A DNA stretch of 64,000 bases, taken from the NCBI RefSeq assembly GCF_003073045.1, contig NC_037591.1, forward strand, positions 42,359,883 to 42,423,882, written 5' to 3'. Origin of the DNA: Pomacea canaliculata. Lineage: Eukaryota; Mollusca; Gastropoda; Architaenioglossa; Ampullariidae. Below, piece by piece: positions 19,610 through 61,521 of the stretch. Under the pieces are notes generated by a model. The model had not been told where the DNA came from. It searched no databases and saw only the letters and a list, made by a program, of their open reading frames with translations. Position numbers and translations under genes: made by a program. Within the stretch, counting starts at the first letter, position 1; every line of letters starts with the position of its first letter.

Positions 19610-22600
19610 ATGCGGCTGTGTGTAGTCCTGCTAGCCGCGGCGTTGGGCTGTTTGTCCCAACAGACCGCCGGCAAGCCCATCGGCATGGAAGACACCATTG
19701 CAGATGTTGTCAGCAGAATTCTGGAAGGTTCTGACAAAGGTGTGTGTTCTTCATGAAAGAAATCGTGCGATATTCTTTCTGGTTATAAAACAAATATTCC
19801 AGAGCTTTTTGTAAGTTCAGAAGATAGAGAAAGAAATGGATATATAAACAAAGTATTATTCCATTGTTAACAGCCGTGCTGCGAAACCCGACTTTGTCTC
19901 GGTTGATTTCTGCCGCTTTTCCAGCTAGGATTTTACTCTCAACTTTCAAGTCCATCGTTTCACCTGAGTCAAACTTATTTGTGTGCGGCATCAGTGTAAC
20001 AAAATAGAGAAACTGCTGTACTCTAGACTTACCTTCACATCTCATACTAACAAACGGTGTACGACGACTCCAGTGAACCTACCACCTGACTCACTTGCTC
20101 GCTCAAAAGTCTGTTCTTCCTCCCTCCATCTCTTCTCATCTGTACCACTTTAAATTACAATGTTTTTATGTTTTCACTGCGCGACAGAAATACTTCTTTA
20201 TCAATTTCTTCTGCGACGTATTTTTTTCCATTTTGAGCCTCTAGCAACATCTTAGAAAGGAAAAAATAAACATCAAAACAAATATACTTTGGAGCAATGT
20301 GTATCTAAACCTAGCCTCTCACCGAGCCATAATCCAGGAATATTCCTGTCAAATTTGTTAAGGATAAACAGAGTTGATTTTAAGGGATGCCGGTCCGTCA
20401 CAAATAAGACACATCATCACACTGTACTTTATTTATGTCAGTTAGAGAGTATGTCTACAAAGTCTACTTCGACAGAGAAGCTCAAATGTCTTTTTTATTC
20501 TATATGACAATAGACTTTCACTAAATATTCCTCCTCTTCTGAGCAGTGAGCCACTGAGCAGACTTTCCAAACAGACTAATGGGAATACTTGCCCAGGGCC
20601 GTGCATCACGTGCCGAAAAGGCGCCATCTTGTTTTCTTCAATGTGAATTGTGGGAAAAGCCTTACAATTCATTTGTTTTCTTTTAAGCAGAAAAAACAGA
20701 GGCCATAACCTTAGTTCTCCAGCTGCTGACAGAGATTGACCTCCCGTCCCTGTGCAAGTCCATTGGAGACGACCCCACCGAAATGACTTCTGTTGATGAC
20801 ATCGTCGCTCGAGCGGCCACCGCCAGACACACGGAGGCTACCACTGCCCCGGTCATGGGTTAGCATATACCCACAGTTTTCACAGAATTTATTTTTATTC
20901 GCCTAAAGGTGTTCACATAAGTCTCTAGAGTCATTTTCAATTTATACGATGACTTGTTTGTTTGTTTGTTTGTTTGTATTTTTTTTACTGTTCTTGATTG
21001 CGAATGCACGGTTCTTACAAGCCTTTAAAAAAAAAATAAGACGTACAGTCAGGTCTGAACGGCAGGTCTTACTCGAAGGATACACCCTCTTGAGATTCAG
21101 CTTGTTTATTTACTGTATCTCCTAAAATATTATTTGACAAAATGAATGATGATAGTCATCTTAAAATTCGCGTTCTGTTTACGATGGAAGTTTTACTCCA
21201 ATTATTTTTTAAGTTTCAGACACGGATGTTGATCTTGCAGAGCAGAATAACACAAATATGAATTGGAAAACAGATTCTACATCAACATTAGATGTGGCCG
21301 AAAAAGAATTCACATCGACAGATGAAGCGCTTGAGGAAACAAAAGACGATATGACCGAGGCTGCCTCCAAAGAAGTGGAACTTAATGCAGAAGTTGAAGT
21401 GTTTCAAGAAATAAGCCTTACAGCGACTGTCCAAGCCCACAGAAACAGAAATCTCAACAGTAGAACCACCTACAGAAACAAACATCACGACAACAAAAGC
21501 ACCAACAGAAGCCAAAATCACATCAGCAGAACTCCTTCAGGAAACAAACCTCACAGCAACAGAAGTATTCACCGAAGTCGAAGTGACAACTGTAGATCAA
21601 CCTACCGAAGCAGAAACAACAACAACAAGTAGAAGTAGCCACAGAAGCCAAGGTGACAACAACAGAACAACCTACAGAAAAAGAAATACCAACAATAGAA
21701 GTAGCCACAGAAGCCAAAGTGACAACAGTTAATCCACATACAGAAAAAGAAATAACAACAATGGAAGCCAAAGGGACGACAGTAGAACAACCTACAGAAA
21801 ATGAAATAACAACAATAGAAGTAGCCACAGAAGCCAAAGTGACAACAGTAGATACACCTACAGAAGAAGCAATCACAACGACAACAGAAGTAGCCCCAGA
21901 AACTGAAATATCAACAATAACAGAATCGTTTACAGAAGGAAATCTCGCGACCAAAGAAGCACACACAGACGTGTTGTTTGAAACAAAGGAGCAAACAGCC
22001 ACAGAAGACATTTTACCTACAGAGACACACAACCCAGCCACTAGCATGCCCTCAGAGAGTTCTCTTTCCTACGATGCTTGGAATGTGGATGACAGCACCG
22101 ACTACATTGCCAGAATCAAGTCTCTTTACGATGACTACCTCCATGTGCCTGACTACACCAGCTCTCGTCTGCTGCCGCCGAACCCGGGTTATGACTATTT
22201 TGACCTCACCGATAATCTCATCTACGACATCGCTGCGGCAGCGGAAACATCGAAGACAGATGTCCTGCATCGCCTCGAGCAAGCCCTTCACAACGGCAAT
22301 GAAGAGATGCTGCATTTCCCAGACAGCATCCTGACTTTGAACTCCTTAGCTTCTCAGCTCAAGCCAGAAGACGACATCGTTTACATCGAAGAAAGCAAAT
22401 CTCTGAAACCTAAACCGGTTTTGTCGTCGGAAAATTTTCAAAGGGAGGAAGGACTACCTCTTGATTCCCAAATGGTACTTCAGGAACCTCAAGCAGCTGA
22501 CTTCCTCTGAACACTTGATGACTCCTCTCTCACCCGATGCACAGGTTTCGCATGTCACCACAAACTTTGTTGATGATATTGTCAGGTCTGACATTAAAAT

Positions 22601-25031
22601 TGATGTTTCTGATGTCATCACTGAAGCTCCGTTGACTTCGAATCTTCCTCCCAGTCTTCAGTAGTCCTTCTCAATAAAGTGAAGACATTTTGGGTGACAC
22701 TGAGGTGTCTTTTATAACCAACCTCATCGAGTCGTCTGCGGAGGGTAAAAAGGAAATGGTTTACATAGTTGATTCATCCACAAAACCTACCACTAACTTA
22801 TCTTCCTCAGGTCTGTCTACGCCTACCAATGGTACAAATATTTCTCCTGAAGAATTGTCCGGGTGCATCAAACTTAGAAGAAAATGCAACGATATATGGG
22901 GAAATATTTGTGACAACTGTAAAACAACTGGAAACAAGAGAAGTTACACAATCAGACAACCTTAACACCACAAACAGGTATGCTGATGCAGAACCGGAAA
23001 TACAGGTTAACGTCTCGAAGGATGACGAATTTCAAGAGAAGATGCCAACAGTCGCTGAAGTTTTCCCCGTGGCTCGGGATTATCCCTGACTTCCATAATT
23101 CTACTAAAACGACTTTCTAGGAGAGAGCCAACCCTCCTCTTTAGCACCGTCACATCTCGCTCCAAGCTTAAATAAAACTGCTTCGATCGAGATAAATAGT
23201 GAGAATAATTCATTCGCCAGTTCCACTAGTTTTCCTCCAGAACTGATCCTAACTGAAGACAGTAGCATCCTGAACACCAGCGCTGGAGACACAGAAGAAA
23301 AGATATTTACGGTGACTACTTCAACATTACTATCATCTACAACTGAGACAGATATTTCCATTTAACTATACACCAAGTGTTCTAACGACCCAAGATTCTA
23401 ATACAACATTGAATACTGAAGGTACCAATGGCACAGATCATAATTTGGAAAATGGCAGCATTTCATCAGAAAAAATTCGTTTACGACTCAGCGTTTAGAA
23501 CCAGTTTCCGCAGACTTTGAAGGAAATGACACAATAATTGAAGCCGTTCTTTTGAAGGAGGAATTCTCAACAGCCGAGAAGACGAGCACAACAGAGCAAA
23601 CAACTTTCTCGACATCCCAGACTTCTCCAATGACAAAGGCAAGCTCTCAGACATCGGCAGAGGGAAGCACATGGACTTCGGAGACTCCAACACAAGAGAG
23701 CAAGAGAAAATCGCCAATGTTGTCTCTCTCCAGAACACTTGAACAACACCTTCGGTCACGTGAATGGTGGCAACCTAAAGCGGATGCCAGAAAATTCCAT
23801 CTCCAGTGATGTGTTTTCGCACTGGTCTGGGCAGGAAGTCGATGACAAGTGGACTGTCATAGGAAAGAAGCGAGACGGAATACTAGAAAATGAAGCTGCC
23901 ATCCCAGCAGCCAATGACAGGGATGATGAGAACAGATACGTCGAATACAAGCTTGACTCTACCCCCTTCGAAGGCAATAAGGTCTGGAGCAGTCTAACCG
24001 ACGCTCGAACCTATGAACCCAGGTGGGACATCCGTCACAACGTCAAAGAAAGTGATGTTTCGGGCACAGAGGATAGGTCTCTCACCACACCTGAAGCCTC
24101 CACTACAGCGAAGTACATCGTCGATCCCTCCAACGCCATACAAGACACGCAGAGGGTCAAAAGTGAAACTTTCCCTCCTGTCGTTCGTGACTACTCTCCT
24201 CGGACGTGGTCCCCTTTCAACCCTCATTTCGCTAGCCCGAATCTTGGGTCACTGTGGGGCCTTAACCCCAACTTTCAACACAATACCCACCACTTCGCTC
24301 CTGAGAAATTCAATGACATGGGCTCCTATCCTGAATTTCAATTTGGGCGACCTTCGCCCTGGAAGCCATCAGACATTAGCTACCATGTGAAGAACGCCAA
24401 GCCTAAGGTTAGCAGCGAGGTTTTGAAAACTCTGGGAATAAAGCAGAAGACTATCCTGTCAGAGGAGACATTACCAAAATTCTTGCACTTTAACGGTGAG
24501 AACACATTAGTAGAAAGATTGACACTTCATGGCGAAAATATATTTTTACTGTTTAATTAGCGTTTCACGTAGAAACTATGGTGACAGGCTAACATCATGA
24601 GGCAGCATTCTCCATCTGTATTTTACATTTTCATGCTAAGAATTGTTCTCCCATTAGTAAACAGTACTTTACATTTTTATACGGGAGCTACACATAATGT
24701 AACAATGATCGCAGTTACATGAAAGTTGATGTATTTTGGCTGAGAACTTTTTTTGTTATTTTGTCAACAGCTGAGATTTATTCAAAACGCTTGTTTGTAA
24801 GGTAACATATTTACTAAAAAATTGAAAACTTTTAAAATAACTTGTCATGCTGTTACAGGCTACCTATGTCCCGGCCTTTTCGGATATTTCGGAGACGTCA
24901 TGGACTGTCGCAGCTTCTTCATCTGTAGCTGGGGTGTTCCTTACCGCTTCTACTGTCCATCCGGAACCTTGTGGAACCCCGTGGAATCCGTGTGTGACTG
25001 GTCAAGGAATGTCAAATGTAGCAAAAAATAG
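19610..25031 (+). CDS. Secreted mucin-like protein with C-terminal chitin-binding type-2 domain; frame broken many times
   Basis: Exons: 19610-19739 (signal peptide, MRLCVVLLAAALGCLS), 20691-20858, 21220-24495 and 24859-25031. All junctions are phase 1 with consistent GT-AG sites, including TTTAACG|GTGAG joined to ACAG|GCTAC. The last exon encodes a CBM14/peritrophin-A domain with six cysteines, starting YLCPGLFGYF and including the CDWS motif. The central exon encodes a Thr/Glu/Ser/Val-rich stalk with 22-residue repeats, then a less repetitive half. Peritrophin-like proteins bind chitin in extracellular matrices such as gut lining, radula or shell matrix. In 21220-24495 the coding frame moves about nine or ten times, roughly at 21.42, 21.63, 22.50, 22.67, 22.87, 23.08, 23.12, 23.36, 23.50 and 23.73 kb, while coding-like composition persists. 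Splice sites and both ends look intact. It may be a recent pseudogene, a null allele, or a mis-assembled low-complexity exon. Confidence 0.75.
21628..21895 (+). repeat. 66-bp coding repeat (22 residues), about 4 copies
   Basis: Four units of the form (I/V)EVATEAKVTT followed by VxxPTE(K/N)EITT lie in one frame. The third unit lacks four codons. A degenerate earlier unit precedes 21628 in another frame. The repeat builds the Thr/Glu-rich stalk of the chitin-binding protein; the many Thr residues suggest O-glycosylation. Confidence 0.85.
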
Positions 25032-32999: not shown

Positions 33000-33330
33000 A
33001 TCAAATCAAATCAAACTTTATTGTCTGTCGAGGAAGCCCAAGACAGAAATTTTTCTTTTGCTTACAAACACCTATAATAGGACAGGCAGGCATACATACT
33101 CATACAGACATTTAACACACATGCGCACCTACCCATTCTCACACATAAATAGGTAACTTCACAGGATGCCAGTAGACCTACTAGCCTTTGAGTCTTTTTA
33201 AGATGGTGATGGTGCTGGCACGAAGGACCTTTGGTAGGCAGTTTTTCATACACGTGGCACTTTATAGTGCCTGCCTGAGGGCAACAGCTGGAAGTTGGGA
33301 TGGAGAGGGTGCGTTAGGTCCGAAACGATG
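33000..33330 (-). mobile_element. LINE (non-LTR) 3' end
   Basis: On the minus strand the sequence ends AATAAAGTTTGATTTGATT, a poly(A) signal followed by a short TTTGA-type tail. Upstream, the fragments LLPSGRHYKVPRV and AYQRSFVPAPS resemble the conserved C-terminal end of non-LTR retrotransposon ORF2 proteins (LPSGRRYR..R..N.F.PS). It is heavily 5'-truncated and decayed. The clade is not resolved. Confidence 0.6.
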
Positions 33331-36300
33331 TTATATGCCATAATAATAATATACATTACTGTTGGTGAATAGGTTGCTTTGTTTTATTGTATTGTTTTTG
33401 GTTGAAATTTTTAACTAAAGTTTAGTACAGTAAAGAAAACCTTAAGTATCTTGGTATATTGTTTTTTTAATGTTACCTCTTGTAGTAAACATCGTTTAAT
33501 ATTGTGCTTTATAATCTGAAAATGGTAGTGCTAGGTTGTCAGTGTGATTTAAGATTTTAGTTCATTGCATGTTTGGAATGTTGTATTACAAAAGGTGAAG
33601 CAACTTCATTCTTTTCATCGTATTTTCAGGGAAAACAAGAACTCACTGCAATGAAATTGGTTGATTAAGATTTGTTTATAATTTTATACTTAATAGTTTA
33701 CTTCTAGAACATGTATAAAAAAAGAATTAGATCCATAAATACATACTTTGTAATACCCTATCAGTTGTAGTGAGCACCGTTAATTTCTATCAATGCCATT
33801 GGTTCACATGGGGAGTAAAGTAGCAAGGGAAGTAAAAAAGTAGTGAGGGAAGTGGTTTCTGAAGCTGTCTAAACAATAATTTTGGCCAAGGTACTCAGTC
33901 ACTAATGGTTAACAAATTTGTCTTGGTAACAGGGTCTTTTCTTGACCACTTGACACCAGAAATGACTGCCTGCCATTGTAAATAAGAAGCTTCTTATTGT
34001 TTCTTGATGGGAAGTATGTTTTCAACTGAGAGATGTTTAACAGATTCATTACAGATCTTGGGTGTGAATTAATCAGTAGCTTCACTTTCTGCCTGCTCAA
34101 AATCATTTTAGAGCTTTGTAACAAAAACTTGAATCTTTCTACTATATAATAGTTTATAATATAAGCACTGCTATTTTTTAGACCGTGAATCACTTGGTTA
34201 TAATTTGAAATGTTGAAAATGAAAGGACGATGTAAGGCTACAGAAGTTTTGATGGACTCATAAATCAAGTCACAGGCCGTTAAGTTTCTGCGCTGATTAT
34301 CAAAATCTTAACTCTTCCTAGACAGTCCGTGCCTGCAAATGCGAATGTCATCATCACTATAGCTCAGATGCATTGATACCCATATTGAATGACCAAACTA
34401 TGCCACATTAATTACAGAATTATTGTTTCCAAAAGACATTTGATTGTTTTAGTATCTCCATAAAGCAGTTTGTCACCATGCAAAATCAGCCTTTCTTGAC
34501 ATTTCTTTGGCATGGCTGATGCCTGTTGGATGGAGGTGGCAGGAGAATGGGGAAATCAAGTCTTCCAAACTCCAGCATTAATCTGAAATAGACCTTTTGT
34601 CAGAGCAATTGTGTATGTCTTTAAACAAGTTAAAGTGTAGTGCACTCTAATGAGGCTTTTATCTCTCTTAACCATGCTTTTCTTTACCATTAAATTATTA
34701 AATTCAAAAATATTTAGGCATCAGCATAAAAACACAGAGCTTTTAAGTTCAGTTTTTAACTGTTGTGTGTATTTATGCATGAAGGTTAATTTGATGTCTA
34801 CTTTTAAAAAATAGTGTGTGTGCTCTTGCACTTGTATGTTTGTGAAACGTTTTGAGCCTGGCTAATGATGCAGAAAGGTGTATATAACTGTGCCATTTAT
34901 TCATTATGTACATTTATAGTGTATAGATCAAGGACTCACAACTACACACACTTACCGAATAGAAACTGAGATGATCAAAAATTATATTTATCCTTTTTTT
35001 TTCCTGTTACGTAGCTGTGCATTTAAACTTCGCTTCTTGGGCATTTCACTGTACCTTTGCTTGATCCTTGTTACAAGGTTGTTTGCACTTTCTAAACTTC
35101 TAGCATAATAAAAATATATATCATTTATTATTTATCCTCACAAATTTTTGTGATGAGGTCTCACATGAATCAAAAATGCCAATTATCTGGAATGTCTTCA
35201 AATATGCATAAATGTTAATGAGACAACAGATAGTGGTGAGAAATGTTAATTTTTCTTGCATGTCAATAGATGCTGTGTCTGTAATCTTGAATATAGTTCA
35301 GACAAAATTTGTTAAGCACACATTTATGTGCATGTTCATGCACAAGAAAAAGTACATATCCTGCTATGGACTGATGGGTTTCATGGATAGTGAAGCAGCA
35401 AAACTCTTCACTCATTGGTATGTTGTTCTTTTAACTTTTGTTCCCCCTTTTAACTTTTTTTTTATTGCATTGTCTTTTTGCTGGGGAATGCTTAGACACC
35501 TTGCTTCTTATGCCTCTTGGGAGGAAATACAAATTATACACTTAAGTAGTGATGCTATTTTCTGCATTCAGATATTACATTTTCAACATCATTTTCCTAT
35601 GGTGTTACAGTTTAATGTTTTAGCACATGATTGTTTTAAAGCAATGTTTGCATTTGAACTTGATAGTTATTTATGCGTTTAGCTTTTATATGTGGACTGT
35701 TGCATCTTAACTTTGTTTATAGACCTCCCTCCTCTGCGAAGGTTTCAAGTTTATGTTGAGAAGGGTGGCAACATGCAAATGCATTTATTTTACAAAGCTT
35801 TCAGAACTTGTTTCCAGTTGCAAATGTGTCATTAAAGTTCAAGTTTCAATAAGACTGGTCATTTTTCTGGTGCTTATGTTGGTCAGTCATTAGTGGTAGG
35901 TGCTTACAATTTAATGGTTTAAGTCCTATATGGCAGATTTCCTAAAAGGGATAGCATGCCTGTCCAGCCATTAAGATTGTTAAAAATATATCCCACCATC
36001 AGCATTCCACCCTTTAATAATCTTCCCTTAGAGTCGAACCCAAGATGGGTAGGAAATACTTTCACGCTTAAACTTCTTAGAAAACACCTTACAGTTGTAT
36101 TTAAATGTTTGCAATGCTACAATAATTGGCATGATCTTTAGGGCAAGTTCTGCCCTAAGATTCCATGTACCCAGATGCAGAACCAAGTGAGGCTGTTTTC
36201 TTTAGCTGATTTTTGAACGCTATAAATTATTGAAGGTAGTGCTGTACTGTGTAACTCATTCCAGAAAAAAAAAATCACCTGTGTAGACCCATTTCTTTGG

Positions 36301-36606
36301 GCAGTGCATTTGTAGATAATGCAATTTTTTAAATCTTAAAAAAAAAAAAAAAAAAAACAAACATGTCCATTAGTAAGTCTTTTAGACATTTTCTTTTAAT
36401 GCAAATATTGTTTTACAGGATGCCAACAGCATGTTTTCTGCAAACACCAAAAACATTTCTTGGGGAAATCTTTGACCTGTGAAATTAGTTTATCTTGTTC
36501 CTTGGATTTTTCACCATTTAATTGCTATCCAGAATACTTGAAAAAAAAAGTCACAAAAGTACTTGTATCACATAAAGCTAAGGGTTTCCCCCCTAGAGAA
36601 GTCTCT
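33331..36606. other. Intergenic sequence and HSC70 3' UTR; no gene recognised
   Basis: AT-rich sequence. A 156-codon open frame at 35212-35682 is Phe/His-rich, has no recognised domain and no splice context, and is treated as chance. The right end should hold the HSC70 3' UTR (minus strand); a candidate ATTAAA-type signal reads at 36400-36395. A poly(A) run lies at about 36338-36357. Confidence 0.45.
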
Positions 36607-39600
36607 TTAATCAACCTCTTCAATTGTTGGACCACCACCGCTGCTTCCTCCATGAGCTGCTCCACCAGCACTTGCACTTCTGGGGTCGAAATTGGGCATT
36701 CCACCAGCACCACCAGCAGCCTGATACATCTTTGTAATTATAGGGTTGCAAACCTTTTCCAGTTCTTTTTGTTTGTCATCAAATTCTTCCTTCTCTGCAA
36801 GTTGGTTGGCATCCAGCCAGCGAATGACTTCATCGCACTTGTCCAAAATGGTCTTTTTGTCTTCTGCAGATATCTTGTCCTTAACCTTCTCATCCTCAAT
36901 GGTCGACTTCATGTGGAATGCATAAGACTCCAGTGAATTCTTTGATGAAATTCGATTCTTCTGCTTGTCATCATCTTCCTTGTACTTTTCAGCATCATTG
37001 ACCATTCTTTCGATTTCCTCCTTGCTCAAGCGACCTAAAAAGAATGAAATTAAATTACTGTCTCATGTCACCAGTAGACTTGGTTTTACATGAAGTAACA
37101 TGAAACAAACAATTCAAATATCAAAATCTGTGCAAAGCTTTAAAATTTGTAATGTAATGATCTTTTTAGTGTCAAGAAAATTACCTTTGTCATTTGTGAT
37201 AGTGATCTTATTTTCTTTGCCAGTACTCTTGTCTACTGCTGACACATTGAGAATGCCGTTTGCATCAATATCAAAGGTGACTTCAATTTGCGGCACACCA
37301 CGAGGTGCTGGTGGGATACCGGTGAGCTCAAACTTGCCCAGCAGGTTGTTGTCCTTGGTCATTGCACGCTCTCCTTCATACACCTGCACACCACAAAAAT
37401 CTTTTTCACAAAAAAGCATATTTGTAGAATTTATACTTGTATACTTTCATGCAATCATTTGCCCCCCCCCCCCCCCACCAAAAAAATAATGCCACAACTA
37501 GAACTCAAGGTGTGGGATATGGTCCCTGCATGCGTTTGTGGATCTAACTGAAGTTTTTTCCAACAAGCTACAAACCTGAATGAGCACACCAGGTTGGTTG
37601 TCTGAGTAGGTTGTGAAAGTCTGAGTCTGCTTTGTAGGGATGGTAGTGTTTCTCTTGATCAAAGCAGTCATAACACCACCAGCAGTCTCAATGCCAAGAG
37701 AAAGGGGGGCAACATCCAGCAAAAGAAGGTCCTGCACCTCCTCAGACTTGTCTCCATGCAAAATGGCAGCCTGGACCGCTGGAAATAATCATTAAAACAT
37801 TAAAAGCATATAAACCTTTTTGTGACAAAAACCTATTCATGGTGTCCCTACACTGTGCGCATCTTAAGGTGCAAAATATCTTCATGGCAACAGCTTTAAA
37901 AAAAAAAATTGTGACATCACAACACTTCTGCCCTGAGCTATTTAAAATCCATAATGCTGTGAATGCAAGCATGTACTTAAAGCAGTTGAAAACTTAATAT
38001 TTGCAAGAAACAACAGAATATTTTTTAAAGCTAGTGTCAGCTGAATTGGAAAATTCCTGTAAAATAAACTGCTCACTCACCAGCACCATAAGCAACAGCT
38101 TCATCAGGATTGATGCTTTTGCACAACTCCTTGCCATTAAAGAAATCCTGAAGCAGCTTCTGAATCTTGGGAATGCGAGTTGAACCACCCACCAACACAA
38201 TCTCATGGATGGAGGCCTTATCTAGCTTAGCATCCCGCATGGCTTTTTCAACTGGCTCTAGTGTACCACGGAACAAATCGGCATTCAACTCCTCAAATCT
38301 AGAAAGAAATAATATTCGATCATAAAACTTACCCAGCACACCTTTCAAAAGTTGAATTGAGTACCACCTCCCAAACCCCTACATACAGGACTTAGGTTTC
38401 CCAATATTTAGCATAGGATATGCATACAGCTGTTGTAAATTATATATATGCATTCTTTTATTTGGACGTATGGTTCTCACTTACCACCCATCATACTTAA
38501 GCGTATCGGTAGTGATAAGACTACCACAGCTTAAAAACAAAGCTTATAATGGGTAAACTTTACAGGATTACAACAAAGCATGTGACAACAACAGCTGCAA
38601 AATTTATATGTCTTATGTGTACAGGAGGGGGGAGGGGAAAGAGAGAGACAAATTCTTTACACTATTAAGCTTTTCTCAAAACAAAATGAAAAATCATACC
38701 TAGCTCTAGTAATGCTGGTGTAGAAATCAATGCCTTCGTATAAAGAATCTATTTCAATATTCGCTTGAGTGGATGATGACAGGGTTCTCTTTGCTCGCTC
38801 ACATGCAGTACGCAATCGTCGTACAGCACGTTTATTGTCAGATATATCCTTTTTGTGCTTTCGTTTGAACTCTTGCACAAAGTGGTTGACCATACGGTTG
38901 TCAAAATCTTCACCACCCAGATGTGTGTCTCCAGCTGTAGACTTTACTTCAAAGATGCCATCCTCAATTGTCAGGATGGAGACATCGAAAGTGCCACCAC
39001 CCAAATCGAAGATGAGAACATTGCGCTCACCGCTAGCCTGCAATAATGGTGTAGTAGTAATTTAGTACACTTTGTTAATATTTCCCACATAAAGGTGGGC
39101 TTCATGCACTTGAAAGAAAGTGGGCAGGAGCGAATGAGGTGCAAAAGAAGTATAACAATCAAGCATAACATACAACTACAAGCACTGTATATGCAGCACC
39201 ATGCTCCACTTGGGAAATTAGGCATAGCTACGAACGCAAACACAAATTCTGACATGTAGTGGATGAAAGTCCAGATCAGGATACATGTAGGGAAGATGAA
39301 GGCAGGACCAGGTCAGGGAAAAACTGGAAATTGGTCTTCTGCAAAGTCAGCCTCCTACAAATGATACATGGGCCACAGCAAAAAAAAGTACCCGAAACAA
39401 TATCTGAACCCCATATCCTCCAACCCTCTCAAAATAAGCAAAAGGCACCACTAGATCACCTACCAGAAAAAGAGAATGAGTAAAAGCCATCCAGCCTTCC
39501 TACGTTTTTTATATTCACTGAAAATGTGGAAAATTCACAAAGCGCAGTAATTGGATATGCTGATGATACCTTTTTATCAAGACCATATGCAATAGCTGCA

Positions 39601-40648
39601 GCAGTAGGTTCATTGATAATACGCAGGACATTCATGCCAGAAATTGTACCAGCATCCTTTGTTGCCTGGCGCTGAGAATCATTGAAGTAAGCAGGGACTG
39701 TGATGACAGCATCAGTAACTTTCTGTAACATACGGAACAAGCCTTTTCAATGCAATGATGTTATAATCAGAAGTTTAAATTTAATATGACTCAGACATCC
39801 AACATCAACAAAATCGAATTGGAAAGTTCATCCAAAGCACAAATTCTTTTTTAAACAATGACCTACCTTTCCCAAATATGCCTCTGCCGTTTCCTTCATT
39901 TTTACAAGAACCATTGATGAAATCTCCTCAGGAAAAAAAGTTTTTGACTCTCCTTTGTACTCGACTTTTATCTTGGGTTTGCCACCATCATTGGTTACAG
40001 TAAAAGGCCAGTGCTTCATGTCTGATTGGACTGCTGGGTCATCAAAGCGACGTCCTATCAAGCGTTTGGCATCTGGAAAATTGTAGAAATAATACCTGAA
40101 GAATCAAAGGTGTGGCCCAAATAACTGCAAATCAATCACTTTTCCAACTGCCTATTTATGGTTCGAAGTACCAATGTGACTCAGACATCCAAGGAAGGAC
40201 AAGAACCATCTTTGAAACAAAAGTTTCTCTGGTGGAAACCGCGAATGAATGGAGAATAAATCATCATAGTCACCATTACACATGCACAGTGTGGGCTTTT
40301 CATGCCAGCTATTTTTAAAGCGGCTGCTACTTGCAGCAAAGTACCCATTCACAGGAAGAAGCTAAAAATTACTTAGCTTCATACTTAAGTACATAGCAAA
40401 AAGCTGTTATTTATGCAAATTGGAGGACATATTCAATGCTTACCAAAAACGGTGTTTTCAGGATTCATGGCAACCTGGTTTTTGGCAGCATCACCAATGA
40501 GGCGTTCTGTGTCTGTGAACGCAACATATGAAGGTGTCGTGCGATTGCCTTGGTCATTTGCAATGATCTCCACCTTGCCATGTTGGAAAACTCCAACACA
40601 GGAGTATGTTGTACCCAAGTCAATTCCAACTGCAGGAGCCTTTGCCAT
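36607..40648 (-). CDS. HSC70: Heat shock cognate 70 kDa protein (HSC70/HSPA8-like), complete, U14 host gene
   Basis: Cytosolic/nuclear ATP-dependent chaperone. Eight coding exons on the minus strand: 40648-40444, 40072-39867, 39722-39570, 39037-38700, 38298-38081, 37778-37576, 37383-37185 and 37034-36607. All have GT-AG borders and matching phases, giving 649 residues. Signatures are IDLGTTYS (9-16), [12 protein letters not shown] (199-210), [13 protein letters not shown] (335-347) and the cytosolic C-terminus PTIEEVD. A Gly/Ser-rich tail precedes EEVD. The Met sits five bases after an acceptor (TTTTAG|TCAAG), so a non-coding first exon lies upstream (42123 and beyond). Introns plus this sequence type indicate a cognate HSC70 rather than an intronless inducible HSP70, yet heat-shock elements are present upstream. 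The intron after coding exon 1 and the 5' UTR intron carry U14 snoRNAs. No frame break. Confidence 0.97.
39788..39834 (-). ncRNA. Truncated U14-like snoRNA fragment
   Basis: In the HSC70 intron between coding exons 2 and 3, the minus strand reads TTGGATGTCTGAGTCA, identical to the 3' D-box end of the full U14 copies nearby. Upstream are GGATGAACTTTCC and AATTCG, which loosely match the C-box side. The central 18S-pairing block (GTTTCCACCAGAG) is missing. It looks like an internally deleted U14 copy rather than a working guide. Confidence 0.5.
40176..40273 (-). ncRNA. SNORD14: U14 box C/D snoRNA, copy A
   Basis: Lies in the HSC70 intron between coding exons 1 and 2, in host orientation. On the minus strand: terminal stem GTGAC/GTCAC, C box TGATGA (40266-40261), the 18S-pairing block TTCGCGGTTTCCACCAGAG, the block CCTTCCTTGGATGT, and D box CTGA (40184-40181). 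These blocks are those of U14, which acts in 18S rRNA processing and 2'-O-methylation in the nucleolus. Vertebrate U14 genes also sit in hsc70 introns. Confidence 0.93.
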
Positions 40649-40725
40649 CTTGACTAAAAGAAAAAGTATTTTTTTTAAATACCAACAATTTTACTTATGT
40701 TTCACAACTTCTAAAAAATATAATA

Positions 40726-40826
40726 AGTGACTCAGACATCCAAGGAAGGACAATGAACCATCTTTGAAACTAGAGTTTCTCTGGTGGAAACCGCGAATGA
40801 AGTTGGAACAAATTCATCATCGTCAC
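40726..40826 (-). ncRNA. SNORD14: U14 box C/D snoRNA, copy B
   Basis: Lies in the 5' UTR intron of HSC70, starting about 80 bp upstream of the acceptor-side exon. Minus strand: stem GTGAC/GTCAC, C box TGATGA (40819-40814), TTCGCGGTTTCCACCAGAG, CCTTCCTTGGATGT and D box CTGA (40735-40732). The distance to the 3' splice site is in the usual range for intron-processed box C/D snoRNAs. Confidence 0.93.
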
Positions 40827-41051
40827 GTTAAGTACACAGCTTGCCTTTGCGCAAGACATCTATTAGGTTCTACCTATATGAAAATGCCATGCAATTGGTG
40901 TTAATGTATTCATCTATGAGACCACAAACCACATAAAGACGTGAATAGATAATTTAAGTTTAAAATGCAAAATCTCTAGAACTTAGCTTTTCCCTACCCC
41001 TATCCTCCTTAACTGGTACACAATAAACTAGACTGAGCTTGCAAGTCAGTA

Positions 41052-41153
41052 GCATGATTCAGACATCCAAGGAAGGACAATGACCCATCTTCGAAACAAG
41101 AGCTTCTCTGGTGGAAACCGCGAATGAAATGGAAATATTCATCACCATCATAC
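41052..41153 (-). ncRNA. SNORD14: U14 box C/D snoRNA, copy C
   Basis: In the HSC70 5' UTR intron, minus strand. C box TGATGA (41144-41139), 18S-pairing block TTCGCGGTTTCCACCAGAG, CCTTCCTTGGATGT and D box CTGA (41062-41059), closed by a stem of about 7 bp (GTATGAT with AATCATGC). It is closest to copy D in both body and flanks. Confidence 0.92.
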
Positions 41154-41448
41154 TCACTGACAAAATCGCTGTCAAGTAATTATATTCTTGAATTGTCTGA
41201 TAAATCTTTATAACCCAACTATCCCACCTTATCACAATGCCTCGTGACCGTGTCAGTAGTGCGGTAATCGTAGGGGAAACGCGTATCACATATACGAACA
41301 TTCACGATATGATGAAGCGAATTAGTTACAAAATTTCACTTTAAATGTAAGCAGGAATACCACCAACCCCCTACCTCACAAAAGAACTAATGCAATAACA
41401 TTATTTGCTGGTTTACTCTAAACTAGGTTTAAGTTTGTTAAGTCAGTG

Positions 41449-41551
41449 GTACGATTCAGACATCCAAGGAAGGACAATGACCCATCTTCGAAACAAGAGC
41501 TTCTCTGGTGGAAACCGCGAATGAAATGGAAAAAAATCATCATAATCATAC
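41449..41551 (-). ncRNA. SNORD14: U14 box C/D snoRNA, copy D
   Basis: In the HSC70 5' UTR intron, minus strand. C box TGATGA (41542-41537), TTCGCGGTTTCCACCAGAG, CCTTCCTTGGATGT and D box CTGA (41459-41456), with an 8-bp terminal stem (GTATGATT with AATCGTAC, one G-U pair). Its flanks (AAGTCAGT on one side, ACTCACTGACAAA on the other) are shared with copy C. Confidence 0.92.
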
Positions 41552-42122
41552 TCACTGACAAATTACTCTATCCAAATTACTTAATTCATCTATGCCCTAC
41601 ATATTATTCACGACATGCTATGCCACGTGATGGACACGCCACCTACCATACACCACCACGTGGCGAAAGAGCCAACTGATCTTCAAGCGCTAACAAAGGT
41701 AAATTAAAAACAAAATAAAATTCAATATATAAAAATCTAATGCAATTATGAATGAACAATGTCCCAAATCTAGCAATCGCACAAAGAACATGTCGCACCA
41801 TGTTATCGCTTAATATTCTTAACCGGCTTCGAGAGCATTCCAACTGAACAATAGCTATATGAAAGGGAACAATGCGTAATCCTGGGAGCGTTTCAAGCTT
41901 GAATCAATTTTAAATATAATCCCATCTATGCATTACTTAACATTTTCTTGTATTACTAAAAGTGTCAAAAACTGTAAATGAAATTTTATTTCGCGATGAA
42001 CACTCGACCGAGTCTGATCCAAAATAATTAGAAAACCGAGAAACGTTAATAAAATTGAATACAGATGAAAAAGACGTTTAAAATCTCATTAGCATAGAGT
42101 TCCTGGTTATCTAAAATCTTAC

Positions 42123-42195
42123 CTGATCTTTTTTTTGTTACAAAATGCTACACCTCGACGGTTGCGACCTTACCCGCCTTTGAAGGACTAGTGTG
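42123..42195 (-). other. HSC70: Non-coding first exon of HSC70 (5' UTR)
   Basis: The minus strand reads AAAAGATCAG|GTAAGATT, a good donor at 42123/42122, which pairs with the acceptor at 40654 just before the start codon. The 5' limit is an estimate from a weak TATA-like CTTAAAC at about 42225-42217. The intron 42122-40654 carries three U14 genes. Confidence 0.55.
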
Positions 42196-42243
42196 TAGCA
42201 GACCGGTCGGTCGGGCGGTTTAAGAGGAAGTGGCGGCTCGATG

Positions 42244-42410
42244 AGAACTTTCTAGAATAAGGAAAAATAGACCAATAGTAAGACGAGGAGAATGAGCATT
42301 AGCCAATCAAATAGTTAGAATCTAACGTCACTTCCTTGGCAGCGACAGAGACGTTTCTCGAAAGAACCAACTAGAAAACGGATTACCGTATAGCGTTTCT
42401 CGAAACTTCG
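42244..42410 (-). promoter_or_regulatory. HSC70: HSC70 promoter with heat-shock elements and CCAAT boxes
   Basis: Three HSF-type sites: 42245-42257 is a perfect GAAnnTTCnnGAA, 42397-42409 is a perfect TTCnnGAAnnTTC, and 42355-42362 holds TTCnnGAA followed by a poor third unit. CCAAT lies at 42272-42276 and 42303-42307. All are upstream of the inferred HSC70 start on the minus strand. HSF1 binds such arrays, so some heat or stress induction is expected. Confidence 0.75.
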
Positions 42411-45207
42411 ACATTTTTCTCAGCACAGCAAAGCGTATTCATGGACATTGAAGCATTCAACAGCCACATATTTGTTTTCTACATTACAGTGGACAGTGCG
42501 GGCTCTTTTTTTGTTTTTCCTTCCGCAGGTTATTCAACGATTTCTGTTACGGTTCTTTTGTCGCCATTAAACAGAACACATATTTCACATGAGACGAATT
42601 TCAGTGCTCACAGCTATAGCAGAATATGGGCGTTCGCTTCTATGTAATAAAAGATGTTAATTAGAATCTTATGCTGTTCCGCGCGGTCATTTGTAGGTAT
42701 AAAATGATTCGCTCATGAATACACAAAAAGAGCACGTGGCGGATCCCAGAATATACCCACATATTACCTAAAAACACGCCATTCGCACTATAAATAAACC
42801 TGTTGAATAGAAAAAAGGGTTTAGCAGTTTTTAAAGCAGAGTAAGCATAAATGGGAATAGAACGTCGCCTCGTCCTGTTTGTATTTTTGAAGACTCGAAC
42901 AGGCCTGATATAAGTTAATATTTATTTGCATATCTTTGTACACCAGTCAAGCCAATGTTAAATCCTGCCGTTTTAAGTTCTCGATCAGTCCACAATATTA
43001 TTTGTGCGTTCATTTACGCACGTGCTTTTGTAAGACTTCAAAGATCTCTCGCACTTTAGACATTATATTTATCTCTATCACATGATTCATATCTGTGATG
43101 TAACAGTTATATATCTTGCCCAGCACCTACGTACTCTACTTCACCTACCTCTACTACACCTATACCTCTTGCTACACTTACAAGTTCACGGATAGGTACG
43201 CCTAACCTCTTTCCTTAACTCTTGAGTCACTTGATTCTGTCATTGAAGCTGCTCATGTTGTTGCCTAGAGCATGTATATATTCCTGTGTGTAGCAGTTTA
43301 TTTGTACCTATCGTTTTACCATTGGTGCAATAATTCATAGTAATATTTTGACAAGGTTGCTGACAGTAATTTTAATCAATGTTTCCACGAACTTATATAA
43401 CTTAATTACACATCCATGATGTTTCCATCCACTGAGTGGATAGATGAGTGCTGACATCAGCTGCATTTGTTGGGAGATGTCATAAAGGGTTATCATGGTG
43501 GGCTGGTTGAGACCTATATTTTTCCATATCTTTTTGTAGGTTGCAAGAAAAAAAACAACTGTATGTGATGATTACATATATTAAAAAAGTTTCAACACAT
43601 TCTGATAAGTCTTTTTGGGAAAATATTTCTTAAGGTTTTCATAGACGACAATCAATACCCTTAACTCCGTGTGTTTCTCAGTATGAGGTGGAAAGCAGCG
43701 ATTCTGTAAAGCTCAAAGCAGCATGAAGGCATAAATACACACATGGGTGATGACTAATCACAGACATGAACTGCCACAGTAATCACCTTTGGCGTCACAA
43801 ATGGCAAGACTGTTTCACAGTGATAAAGCATTGCAGAAGTTGCATGCTGTAGAACATTTTATTGCTTACTTTCCTGCGGGCGCATAATTTACTTTTTCTC
43901 ACACACATAACAAAAACTATAGTCTTGTGTTGCTGATGCATACGTAATCCAAGTATGCTGGTAAGGGAATGACTACAGCAAGCAGAAGAACCATGGAAAG
44001 CAGAATGGGTTCAAAAACAATGCTCTTCCCCCCCACCACCACCCAGAATGCTACCTCATTCTTAGTGAGAGATACAGTAGACATTTTTTTCATCTTGCTT
44101 AGTGACCCATATTCCTATTCTGTGTGTGCGCTACTGTAAGAAGAGCAATACATTCTCTGGGGTCTGCGGGCCTATCTTGCATAGACAGGTATGTGCCAAG
44201 ACAATGAAGACTGCATGGTTAGCAGCATACAGGTATCTGGAATCTGATTTTTTTTTTTTATATAAACTATGATTTTAAGAAATAAGGTCAAGGGAAACTG
44301 AGCCTTCCTGCAGCAACAAAGTAAAATGATCAACTAAGTCTTTTTTGTCTTGTTCTGGTTATTATTGAAATTTTAAAAAATCAAGGTACCGCGCAGTACA
44401 TTTAGCGCGAGGTCATCAGCTATTTAAGAATTTGAAACATACATTCTTCTTTTGTACACTGAAGTGTCTGTTGGTTCATTCGGCATGGTCTTGATCCTCC
44501 TTCTTCCTCATCTTTAAGATTCTGTGTGGTGCAAAAACTGTTATGTCAGCCAACTTCAGACCATCGCCTCCTTTAATAAAGTTGGCATAATATATCACCA
44601 CGACATCACGGTTGCCAACAACATTCTACGGCCTATACTTATCAGAGCACAATTCACAGCTAAAATTAGAAATGGCATGGCAATAACGTCACTGGAATGG
44701 TGAAATGTTTATTCTTTTTAGCGAAAACTATTTTTCTGAGGTTGACGAAATTGCAATTTCGCAAACAGAAAACGTAGTTCTGATACGCATACAGTGTCTA
44801 TATTTTAAACAGCCTATGCATAATTTATTGAAACGAACGTTCTATAACCCCTACCCTTACAGCGGAACAATATATCTTGCCTAACTGCATTGCTGTCATG
44901 GATTCCAATTTCATATACACCACATATCGTATACTCTGTCTCAATGTACATGGAAGCGGTCTCCACATGAACACACGCGTAAGCAACACAAGTAAACGGA
45001 GAACAATCTCGATCTCTGAAGTTCCAGACAGATATAAAAAGATACAATAAACAAAATTTAAAAATTATCGTTGTTTCTCTCGGTCTCACACAAAATCCCA
45101 GCAAAAACTTTCGCAGGTCCCCGCGATTTGGGTTATAACAGACACCCCAAACTAAATTTTCATATTTATCCAAACCTAACCACTCCTACAGGTTCACAGT
45201 CCAGTGG
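42411..45207. other. Intergenic sequence, no gene recognised
   Basis: AT-rich DNA between the HSC70 promoter and a DNA transposon. Short open frames only; none resembles a known protein. A minus-strand open frame at 44.8-45.2 kb has no domain and no splice support. No tRNA or snoRNA motif was noticed. Confidence 0.5.
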
Positions 45208-45246
45208 CGTGTTGCATAGCACGTAGCGAATCGAGCGAAGCTAGCC
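45208..45246 (+). repeat. Left terminal inverted repeat of the DNA transposon
   Basis: Reads CGTGTTGCATAGCACGTAGC and then GAATCGAGCGAAGCTAGCC. It pairs with 48565-48602 in inverted orientation with one 2-3 base difference. Confidence 0.85.
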
Positions 45247-46687
45247 TAGCGAATCTAGCGGTTAGCGAAAGCTAGCGGTCCCTGTGCAACGCAGTGTAGC
45301 CGGAAGCCAGAGTTTCAAGATGGCCGACTTAAGGCGAGGTTTGAGTGAAGTCTTTGTTTTGCAAGCTACACTCCGCCGTGCTGTAGCCAAGCCGTCGCAA
45401 ATAAATATCAAGCTTGCGGCCCACCTGTCCACTGAAAGTAAATCAGGACAATAATGAAAATTCCAATGCCCACATGATCGGTTTCGTCGAAGTCATCGTT
45501 CCAGGATACTCAACATGCCAGGTTCAAATCTCACTTCGAATGTTCCGGACGCCTTTGATGTAAGTTAAACGTAATAAAATAAAGTAAAATGTAATAAACT
45601 TAATGAAATATAAATATAAATGCAAAATCAATTTTAAGGAATGTGAACGTCCAAGATATATATATATGCATAAATGTATCCACTAAACATATCTATAATA
45701 ATGCTCACACACTTAAACTTTCATAGAGATCTTTTGTGAAATTTTTCAGGCTCTCCAGGCTTGGATTGAGCCTCATCTGCCACAGCAACGTGTTCACAAT
45801 AGAACAAACCTGCTTGCCATCTTGTGGTTACTGGCACCAAAATCACCCTCCAGAATATATTCACCTATATTTGCCATACCACGTCTATAGCAAAGCATCC
45901 ATCATCAGTGTCTGCTTTTCTCTTCCACCAACATTTATTATTTCATTATATAATTTGAATATTTTGCATAAATATATCTTGCATTTGTATCAACACCCAT
46001 AATTTCTTTCCCATGCAAATTGAGTTCTACATGTCTTTGTGTCACCATCATTAATAAGTTGTCCACCATGTGCATATATTATATGATATGTGCATTTATA
46101 TTTATGGTTGGTGCGATTTGCAGTTGTGCTTATATGTTGTCTACATACTGAAGTTGACACAGCAGCAAAGTATTGTCATACCACATATGGCTGTGTATTT
46201 TTTCATCACTGTGTACAGTTCTCTCCAGCAACCTTTATTATTTCCATTGCATAATTTGAATTTTTATACATATCTCTTGCATTTGCATCACCACTATGAT
46301 TTGTTTTATTCGTGTAAATTGAGGAGTGTGTGTGTGTTTAATTCCTGTCACCATCCTTAATAATTTGCTTTGTCACCAGATGCATGTCATGTTCTGTGCT
46401 TTTCAAATGAACTAGAGTGTCACTTTTGTGTTTAGCTTTGATGCAACACTTTTCCAGTTATAATTTCTCATTTGATTATCATGTAATGTGTTTATCATAT
46501 AATAAATTTTCATTTGATTTTACTAATTTCATGGTAGAAACAAGTGTGTTTCATTGTGTACATGATTATCAGGTAAATCAGGATTTTTTGGTTTTAACGG
46601 TCACAGTGAAAAAGAATAAAGACATTTGTAAGGGCGTGTAAGTTTTTTATTTAGTACTAAAATCAAGACAGTGACAATATTCTTTAT

Positions 46688-49056: not shown

Positions 49057-61521
<12,465 letters not shown>

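Follow-up and report, generated by a model that had tools for sequence, protein, structure and literature searches.

The 64,000-nucleotide stretch of the genome of the snail Pomacea canaliculata analysed here (assembly GCF_003073045.1, contig NC_037591.1, positions 42,359,883 to 42,423,882), hereafter the window, contains four genes for the small nucleolar RNA (snoRNA) U14 (SNORD14), all of them located within introns of a single HSC70 gene and oriented like their host. Taken as a whole, these data make it quite probable that this snail has HSC70 as its sole detected U14 host, that one transcript serves both products, that the snoRNAs are released along two routes, that copies turn over inside the gene, and that the association was inherited from a bilaterian ancestor. 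The occurrence of U14 in the introns of vertebrate hsc70/HSPA8 genes is long established; the present case differs in the phylum, the introns concerned, the presence of three copies in one intron of the 5' untranslated region (5' UTR), the stems that accompany the two copies most distant from the splice site, and the finding of no other U14 gene. Among the titles and opening lines of abstracts of the open-licence literature matches listed, none reported U14 in an invertebrate HSC70 gene.

Four U14 genes in the introns of HSC70

The whole window was scanned at gathering thresholds with the models of 4227 Rfam families, and exactly four matches were obtained, all to RF00016 (SNORD14; gathering score 64) and all on the minus strand, which is also the strand of HSC70, with scores of 67.1–73.8 bits and E-values ranging from 3e-12 to 4.3e-14. 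The copy designated c1 (40177–40272, minus strand; 96 nt, 70.1 bits) lies in the first coding intron, 104 nt from the 3' splice site, and the copies c2 (40728–40825, minus strand; 98 nt, 73.8 bits), c3 (41055–41150, minus strand; 96 nt, 69.0 bits) and c4 (41452–41548, minus strand; 97 nt, 67.1 bits) lie in the 5' UTR intron, at 74, 401 and 798 nt, respectively, from its 3' splice site. Box C (UGAUGA), box D (CUGA), the closing stem and both blocks that pair with 18S are present in all four copies, which at 96–98 nt fit the 111-position RF00016 model with deletions in its variable middle stem. A permissive Rfam scan of positions 33000–46000 returned only four additional weak matches, every one sub-threshold, and a motif search for other box C/D candidates in the HSC70 introns found only c1 to c4. 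A preliminary description of this DNA had proposed four U14 copies with both boxes, the closing stem and both pairing blocks, all in HSC70 orientation, and had suggested a check with the covariance model; all of this is borne out, the check having placed each of the four copies above the gathering score, and the four U14 genes are confirmed as real, beyond chance.

The host gene, taken from the exon with the start codon as far as the stop, covers positions 36607–40653 of the minus strand and encodes a product of 649 amino acids. Its coding exons (40653–40444, 40072–39867, 39722–39570, 39037–38700, 38298–38081, 37778–37576, 37383–37185 and 37034–36607, minus strand), together with splice sites and reading frame, delimit a gene of eight introns, one of which lies upstream of the start codon. 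This 5' UTR intron (gene intron 1; 40654–42122, minus strand), whose boundaries are predicted from a CAG/GTAAGA donor and a TTTTAG acceptor, hosts c2, c3 and c4; the first coding intron (gene intron 2; 40073–40443, minus strand), placed by splice sites and frame, hosts c1; and the second coding intron (gene intron 3; 39723–39866, minus strand) holds a degenerate copy. The layout first described, with the 5' UTR intron holding three copies and the first coding intron a fourth, agrees with these boundaries.

The identity of the host, also advanced at the outset, stands as well. An EEVD ending is a criterion for cytosolic HSP70, and the host protein terminates in IEEVD. Compared with solved structures by phmmer, it matches HSP70/HSC70 chains end to end, the best-scoring one being a human-type HSP70 1A chain (7kw7_C, 1201.8 bits); a heat shock cognate chain scored 1126.1 bits (3c7n_B), the cognate chains of the structure set being shorter constructs. 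An extra serine in the ATPase domain marks lineage A of the invertebrate HSP70 proteins (PMC8423806). Because this serine is absent from the U14-hosting gene and present in all three of the intronless paralogues that were compared, two of which encode the same protein, we take the host to be a gene of HSC70 type, within lineage B of the cytosolic HSP70 proteins. Two intronless HSP70 genes encoding an identical protein occur in diverging orientation, about 2.6 kb apart, at C1:39326666-39332899.

The pairing of the two blocks was measured against the 18S-like sequences of this same genome. Block A (TCATTCGCGGTTTC), which targets a site near the 5' end of 18S, forms 14 consecutive pairs (13 Watson-Crick and one G-U) in each of the four copies, and block B (CCTTCCTTGGATGT) forms 14 Watson-Crick pairs that end at the box D CUGA, again in each of the four. 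Block A of the snail has CGCGG at a place where CGCAG is the Rfam consensus, and the C that matches this G occurs in 44 of the 45 18S-like sites of the genome. Among the first four 18S-like loci, the block B site was found in four, the block A site in two and both exact sites in two; among eight loci centred on block A sites, exact sites for both blocks occur together in three. These three loci, chosen for having both sites, score 573–850 bits with the eukaryotic 18S model, none being clearly full length, and of the two among the first four loci that were scanned (L038 and L040) a eukaryotic 18S match was obtained for L040 only. The target letters of both blocks in 18S are well supported. According to the D-plus-five rule, the fifth base from box D sets the methylated position. 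The methylation target of block B would be the cytosine of 18S that corresponds to C462 in human and C414 in yeast, which a table in PMC3511168 gives as equivalent positions.

The 18S-like copies dispersed in the genome form an observation of their own. The 45 pattern sites comprise 11 exact ones and 34 that are one base off, the same T-to-G change accounting for 32 of the latter. Examples are found at C2:18324500-18328500 (L040), C10:15526292-15535204 and C13:13788719-13801887, some of the copies being regularly spaced, at 4.3–4.5 kb on C13 and 2.8–3.1 kb on C10. They resemble a family of repeats or pseudogenes that derives from 18S and has spread.

Searches for other U14 genes

The genome searched comprises 440,159,624 bases distributed over 24 contigs. 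The search with RF00016, in which 120 of 8,379 first-look candidates were scored, gave four matches, corresponding to c1 to c4, and BLAST with c1 gave four places at E up to 10. The exact 18-mer made of block B and box D occurs at four places, with none added at one mismatch and 30 at two mismatches; none of the eight of these 30 places that were scored with a local model was significant (best 16.9 bits, E 0.16). When as many as three mismatches were allowed, 523 places were counted vs 289 for the reversed control, many of the listed ones being 18S-like sites. Similarly, the exact 19-mer of block A occurs at four places, with three more at two mismatches, and the two of these three that were scanned gave no Rfam match. 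In vertebrates the same snoRNA has a second host, RPS13, which carries SNORD14A/B; in contrast, the snail RPS13 locus (9.5 kb, with coding pieces at about 4.4–5.8 kb and the first exon unplaced) gave no Rfam match over threshold, and only 15 bits (E 0.52) with the local U14 model. The same model was applied to 18 other HSP70 loci (the genome has 58 HSP70 matches, for 20 of which loci were available, two of these belonging to the U14 host gene), and the best score, of 18 bits (E 0.077), was not taken as U14. Within the limits of these searches, HSC70 is the only detected U14 host in this snail.

The U14 18-mer was also looked for outside the animal genome. It has no place in the viral contigs and occurs in six bacterial ones, which is estimated to be about chance level for that amount of DNA. 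The local model gave one of these, a Peribacillus contig, 27.4 bits (E 7e-5), but Rfam gave it 22.8 bits vs the required 64; selected via the 18-mer itself and with block A absent from the alignment, it was taken as a chance occurrence.

External stems and turnover of the copies

The four copies fall into two pairs with respect to the sequences that enclose them. When flanks of 15+5 nt were cofolded as in PMC10234308 and set against 2000 control placements within the same introns, the energies obtained for c1 to c4 were -10.1, -8.8, -18.5 and -19.9 kcal/mol, the 1% point of the controls being -14.4, and 8.5%, 14%, 0 and 0 of the placements, respectively, reached values as low. The copies c1 and c2, at 104 and 74 nt from the 3' splice site, have ordinary stems, whereas c3 and c4, at 401 and 798 nt, possess long external ones, of about 14 bp with one bulged base for c3 (copy and stem, 41045–41161, minus strand) and of about 14 bp for c4 (copy and stem, 41442–41559, minus strand). 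Within the stem, c3 and c4 differ at three positions, and each of these differences exchanges a Watson-Crick pair for a G-U pair or the reverse, so that the pairing is kept.

For vertebrate box C/D snoRNAs, splicing-dependent assembly is described as most favoured when about 50 nt separate the snoRNA from the branch point (PMC8162545), and a greater distance is often made up for by a terminal stem (PMC10234308); the latter publication also reports that most expressed human snoRNAs are located beyond this assumed optimum. In the snail gene, the strength of the stems appears to track the need for them, since they are weak near the splice site and strong far away, and the agreement between the stems of c3 and c4 partly reflects common descent, these two copies being a recent pair. 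It is most likely that c1 and c2 are released by the splicing-dependent route, and c3 and c4 would be released through stem-aided trimming. According to the mechanism proposed, a single RNA polymerase II transcript would give rise to the HSC70 mRNA and to up to four U14 snoRNAs. For c1 and c2, the small nucleolar ribonucleoprotein would assemble 74–104 nt upstream of the 3' splice site, the debranched intron being trimmed afterwards, while the long external stems of c3 and c4 would bring box C and box D together far from that site. Once mature, U14 would act in 18S maturation through block A and guide, through block B, the 2'-O-methylation of the C462-equivalent cytosine.

The bodies of the U14 copies share 85–91 matching bases over 94–97 aligned, and their flanks at 21–120 nt share 50–61, which is chance level (shuffled mean 56, largest 65). 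The copies c3 and c4 differ from c1 and c2 at several positions, and since they have in common their stems and a further stretch (a local alignment of 181 columns), they are regarded as the youngest pair. In addition, the second coding intron holds a fragment which the preliminary description did not mention, a putative degenerate fifth copy at positions 39787–39839 of the minus strand, whose upper limit, 39839, comes from the model and is uncertain, and which is well kept only at 39787–39802, where box D and the closing strand are found. Its 16-nt tail, TTGGATGTCTGAGTCA, is identical to the end of c1 and c2 that carries box D, and the genome contains this 16-mer at three places, in c1, in c2 and in coding intron 2, all within HSC70, the reversed control occurring at two. 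The score of a local alignment of this intron with the U14 copies was reached by 1% of 300 shuffles, and neither the scan at gathering threshold nor the permissive one gave an Rfam match to the fragment. It is because of the 16-mer, by itself, that we read the fragment as a decayed U14 copy. Comparison of the copies, together with this remnant, points to a birth and death of U14 genes within HSC70, in which c3 and c4 would be the youngest members and the copy of coding intron 2 a dying one.

Ancestry, alternative explanations and stress coupling

In plants and yeast, snoRNA genes are found in intronic or polycistronic clusters, which are transcribed as one precursor and released with the help of stems. 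The snail array resembles these clusters in that several snoRNAs per precursor would be released with such help, and differs from them in that its host is an animal chaperone gene, with copies in the 5' UTR intron, and in its composition, all copies belonging to one family. The positions of the coding introns in the snail HSC70 gene are presumably those of vertebrate HSPA8. In vertebrates, U14 occurs in hsc70 introns, human, mouse and rat each having three copies (PMC7277114); the chicken copies occupy introns 5, 6 and 8 of HSPA8 (PMC2653536). Snail and vertebrate genes are alike in the family encoded (RF00016), in the host gene family, in being intron-encoded and in having several copies per gene. 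They differ, as the preliminary description had anticipated for the layout, in the introns used, which in the snail are introns 1 (5' UTR) and 2, with a remnant in intron 3; furthermore, three snail copies share one 5' UTR intron, two lie far from the 3' splice site with long external stems, and one base of block A follows the 18S of the snail. Yeast U14 (snR128), which similarly base-pairs with 18S and is essential for 18S maturation in yeast, possesses a Y stem-loop that vertebrate U14 lacks (PMC7277114).

The U14–HSC70 link, which the preliminary description already placed before the split of vertebrates and molluscs, was probably inherited from the common bilaterian ancestor, with a change of intron positions, and the observations fit an inheritance at the level of the gene accompanied by turnover among its introns. 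The argument for common ancestry concerns the gene and not the position, because the introns that host U14 in the chicken show no U14 trace over shuffles in the snail. The partnership would accordingly be one that was kept at gene level while the intron positions shifted.

Several points weigh against parts of this overall picture. The expression of the four copies is inferred from their sequence. Just 120 of the 8,379 first-look candidates were scored in the RF00016 genome search, and the 18S target sites were read in dispersed copies of 18S, some of them truncated, rather than in a gene established as complete and active. A stricter duplex test, confined to the flanks and set against shuffles, gave weaker results for the stems, 68%, 95%, 0.95% and 2.65% of the shuffles being as low as c1 to c4, respectively. 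The fifth fragment as a whole scores 11.1 bits (E 0.37) with a model built on the four copies, and the next chance hit in the gene scores 11.0 bits. In snail HSC70, the introns corresponding to the chicken hosts (5, 6 and 8) show no U14 trace over shuffles, the best local U14 scores in introns 4–8 being reached by 12–73% of 300 shuffles. Finally, snoRNAs move between broadly expressed hosts (PMC3511168), and for this reason two independent arrivals of U14 in HSC70 are possible.

The alternatives to be weighed each address a single part of the overall statement, and the probabilities given to them are not meant to sum to one with it. That the four loci represent chance or repeat-derived similarity instead of U14 genes is refuted by E-values of 3e-12 to 4.3e-14, by the restriction of the matches to four places in 440 Mb and by a pairing that tracks the base found in the genome's own 18S-like sites, so that hardly any credence is left to it. 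It is quite unlikely, on the other hand, that only one or two copies make U14, c3 and c4 having duplicated recently and yielding no product. Both lie far beyond the spacing of about 50 nt ahead of the branch point that is given as optimal (PMC8162545), and their common flanks mark them as a recent pair; yet their boxes and both pairing blocks are unchanged, their external stems are the strongest of the four, and all three differences within these stems keep the pairing. A separate entry of U14 into HSC70 in the snail and vertebrate lineages, HSC70 being a suitable host by its broad and high transcription and its introns, also appears unlikely. In its favour, U14 occupies introns 1 and 2 in the snail, with a remnant in intron 3, and introns 5, 6 and 8 in the chicken; snail introns 4–8 lack a trace of U14 over shuffles, and Hoeppner and Poole (PMC3511168) describe the positions of intronic snoRNAs as unstable over large timescales and propose a constrained drift. 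However, many broadly expressed genes could host U14, and a repeated landing in the same one is, in our judgement, unlikely a priori, while a duplication and decay of copies among neighbouring introns explains the positional shift without any departure from the gene. Deep ancestry with movement among introns is clearly preferred, as a matter of judgement, to two independent arrivals.

Two perfect three-unit heat-shock elements are located upstream of the 5' UTR intron, at positions 42245–42257 and 42397–42409 (no strand assigned), and the window contains six such elements vs 1.0 expected from shuffles, a search of the opposite strand giving the same six. A stress control of the U14 supply via HSC70, put forward in the preliminary description and allowed by sequence features of this kind, is plausible. 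A bolder and rather doubtful extension is that U14 has resided in HSC70 since before the vertebrate–mollusc split, hopping among its introns and tying 18S maturation to chaperone transcription in both lineages. In the snail, the link would be complete, HSC70 being the source of all U14; three copies would sit close to the promoter, in intron 1 downstream of the heat-shock elements; and two release routes would make the arrangement robust, the copies near the splice site depending on splicing and the stem-sealed ones being releasable even when splicing fails under stress. The four other perfect three-unit elements of the window occur far from HSC70, at 497–509, 1592–1604, 19719–19731 and 53999–54011.

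The host genes of snoRNAs are thought to drift, and here a mollusc is found to share with vertebrates both the snoRNA and its host gene, but not the introns; the decayed copy of coding intron 2 would illustrate turnover inside one gene. Should other phyla agree, this would be a clear example of a snoRNA and a host that stayed together for hundreds of millions of years even though the position changed. Through the U14 genes in HSC70 introns, the supplies of ribosomes and of chaperones may be linked, and whether the induction of HSC70 sets the supply of U14 becomes a testable question. The coexistence in one transcript of copies near the splice site and of distant, stem-sealed copies also offers a natural test of the two release routes.

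Two other regions of the window were judged by eye from their open frames. Positions 21213–24560 (plus strand) contain long open frames with Thr/Glu-rich repeats, perhaps of a mucin-like or secreted protein, and positions 53133–58346 (plus strand), near HSC70, contain exons resembling MCM6, a DNA replication helicase.

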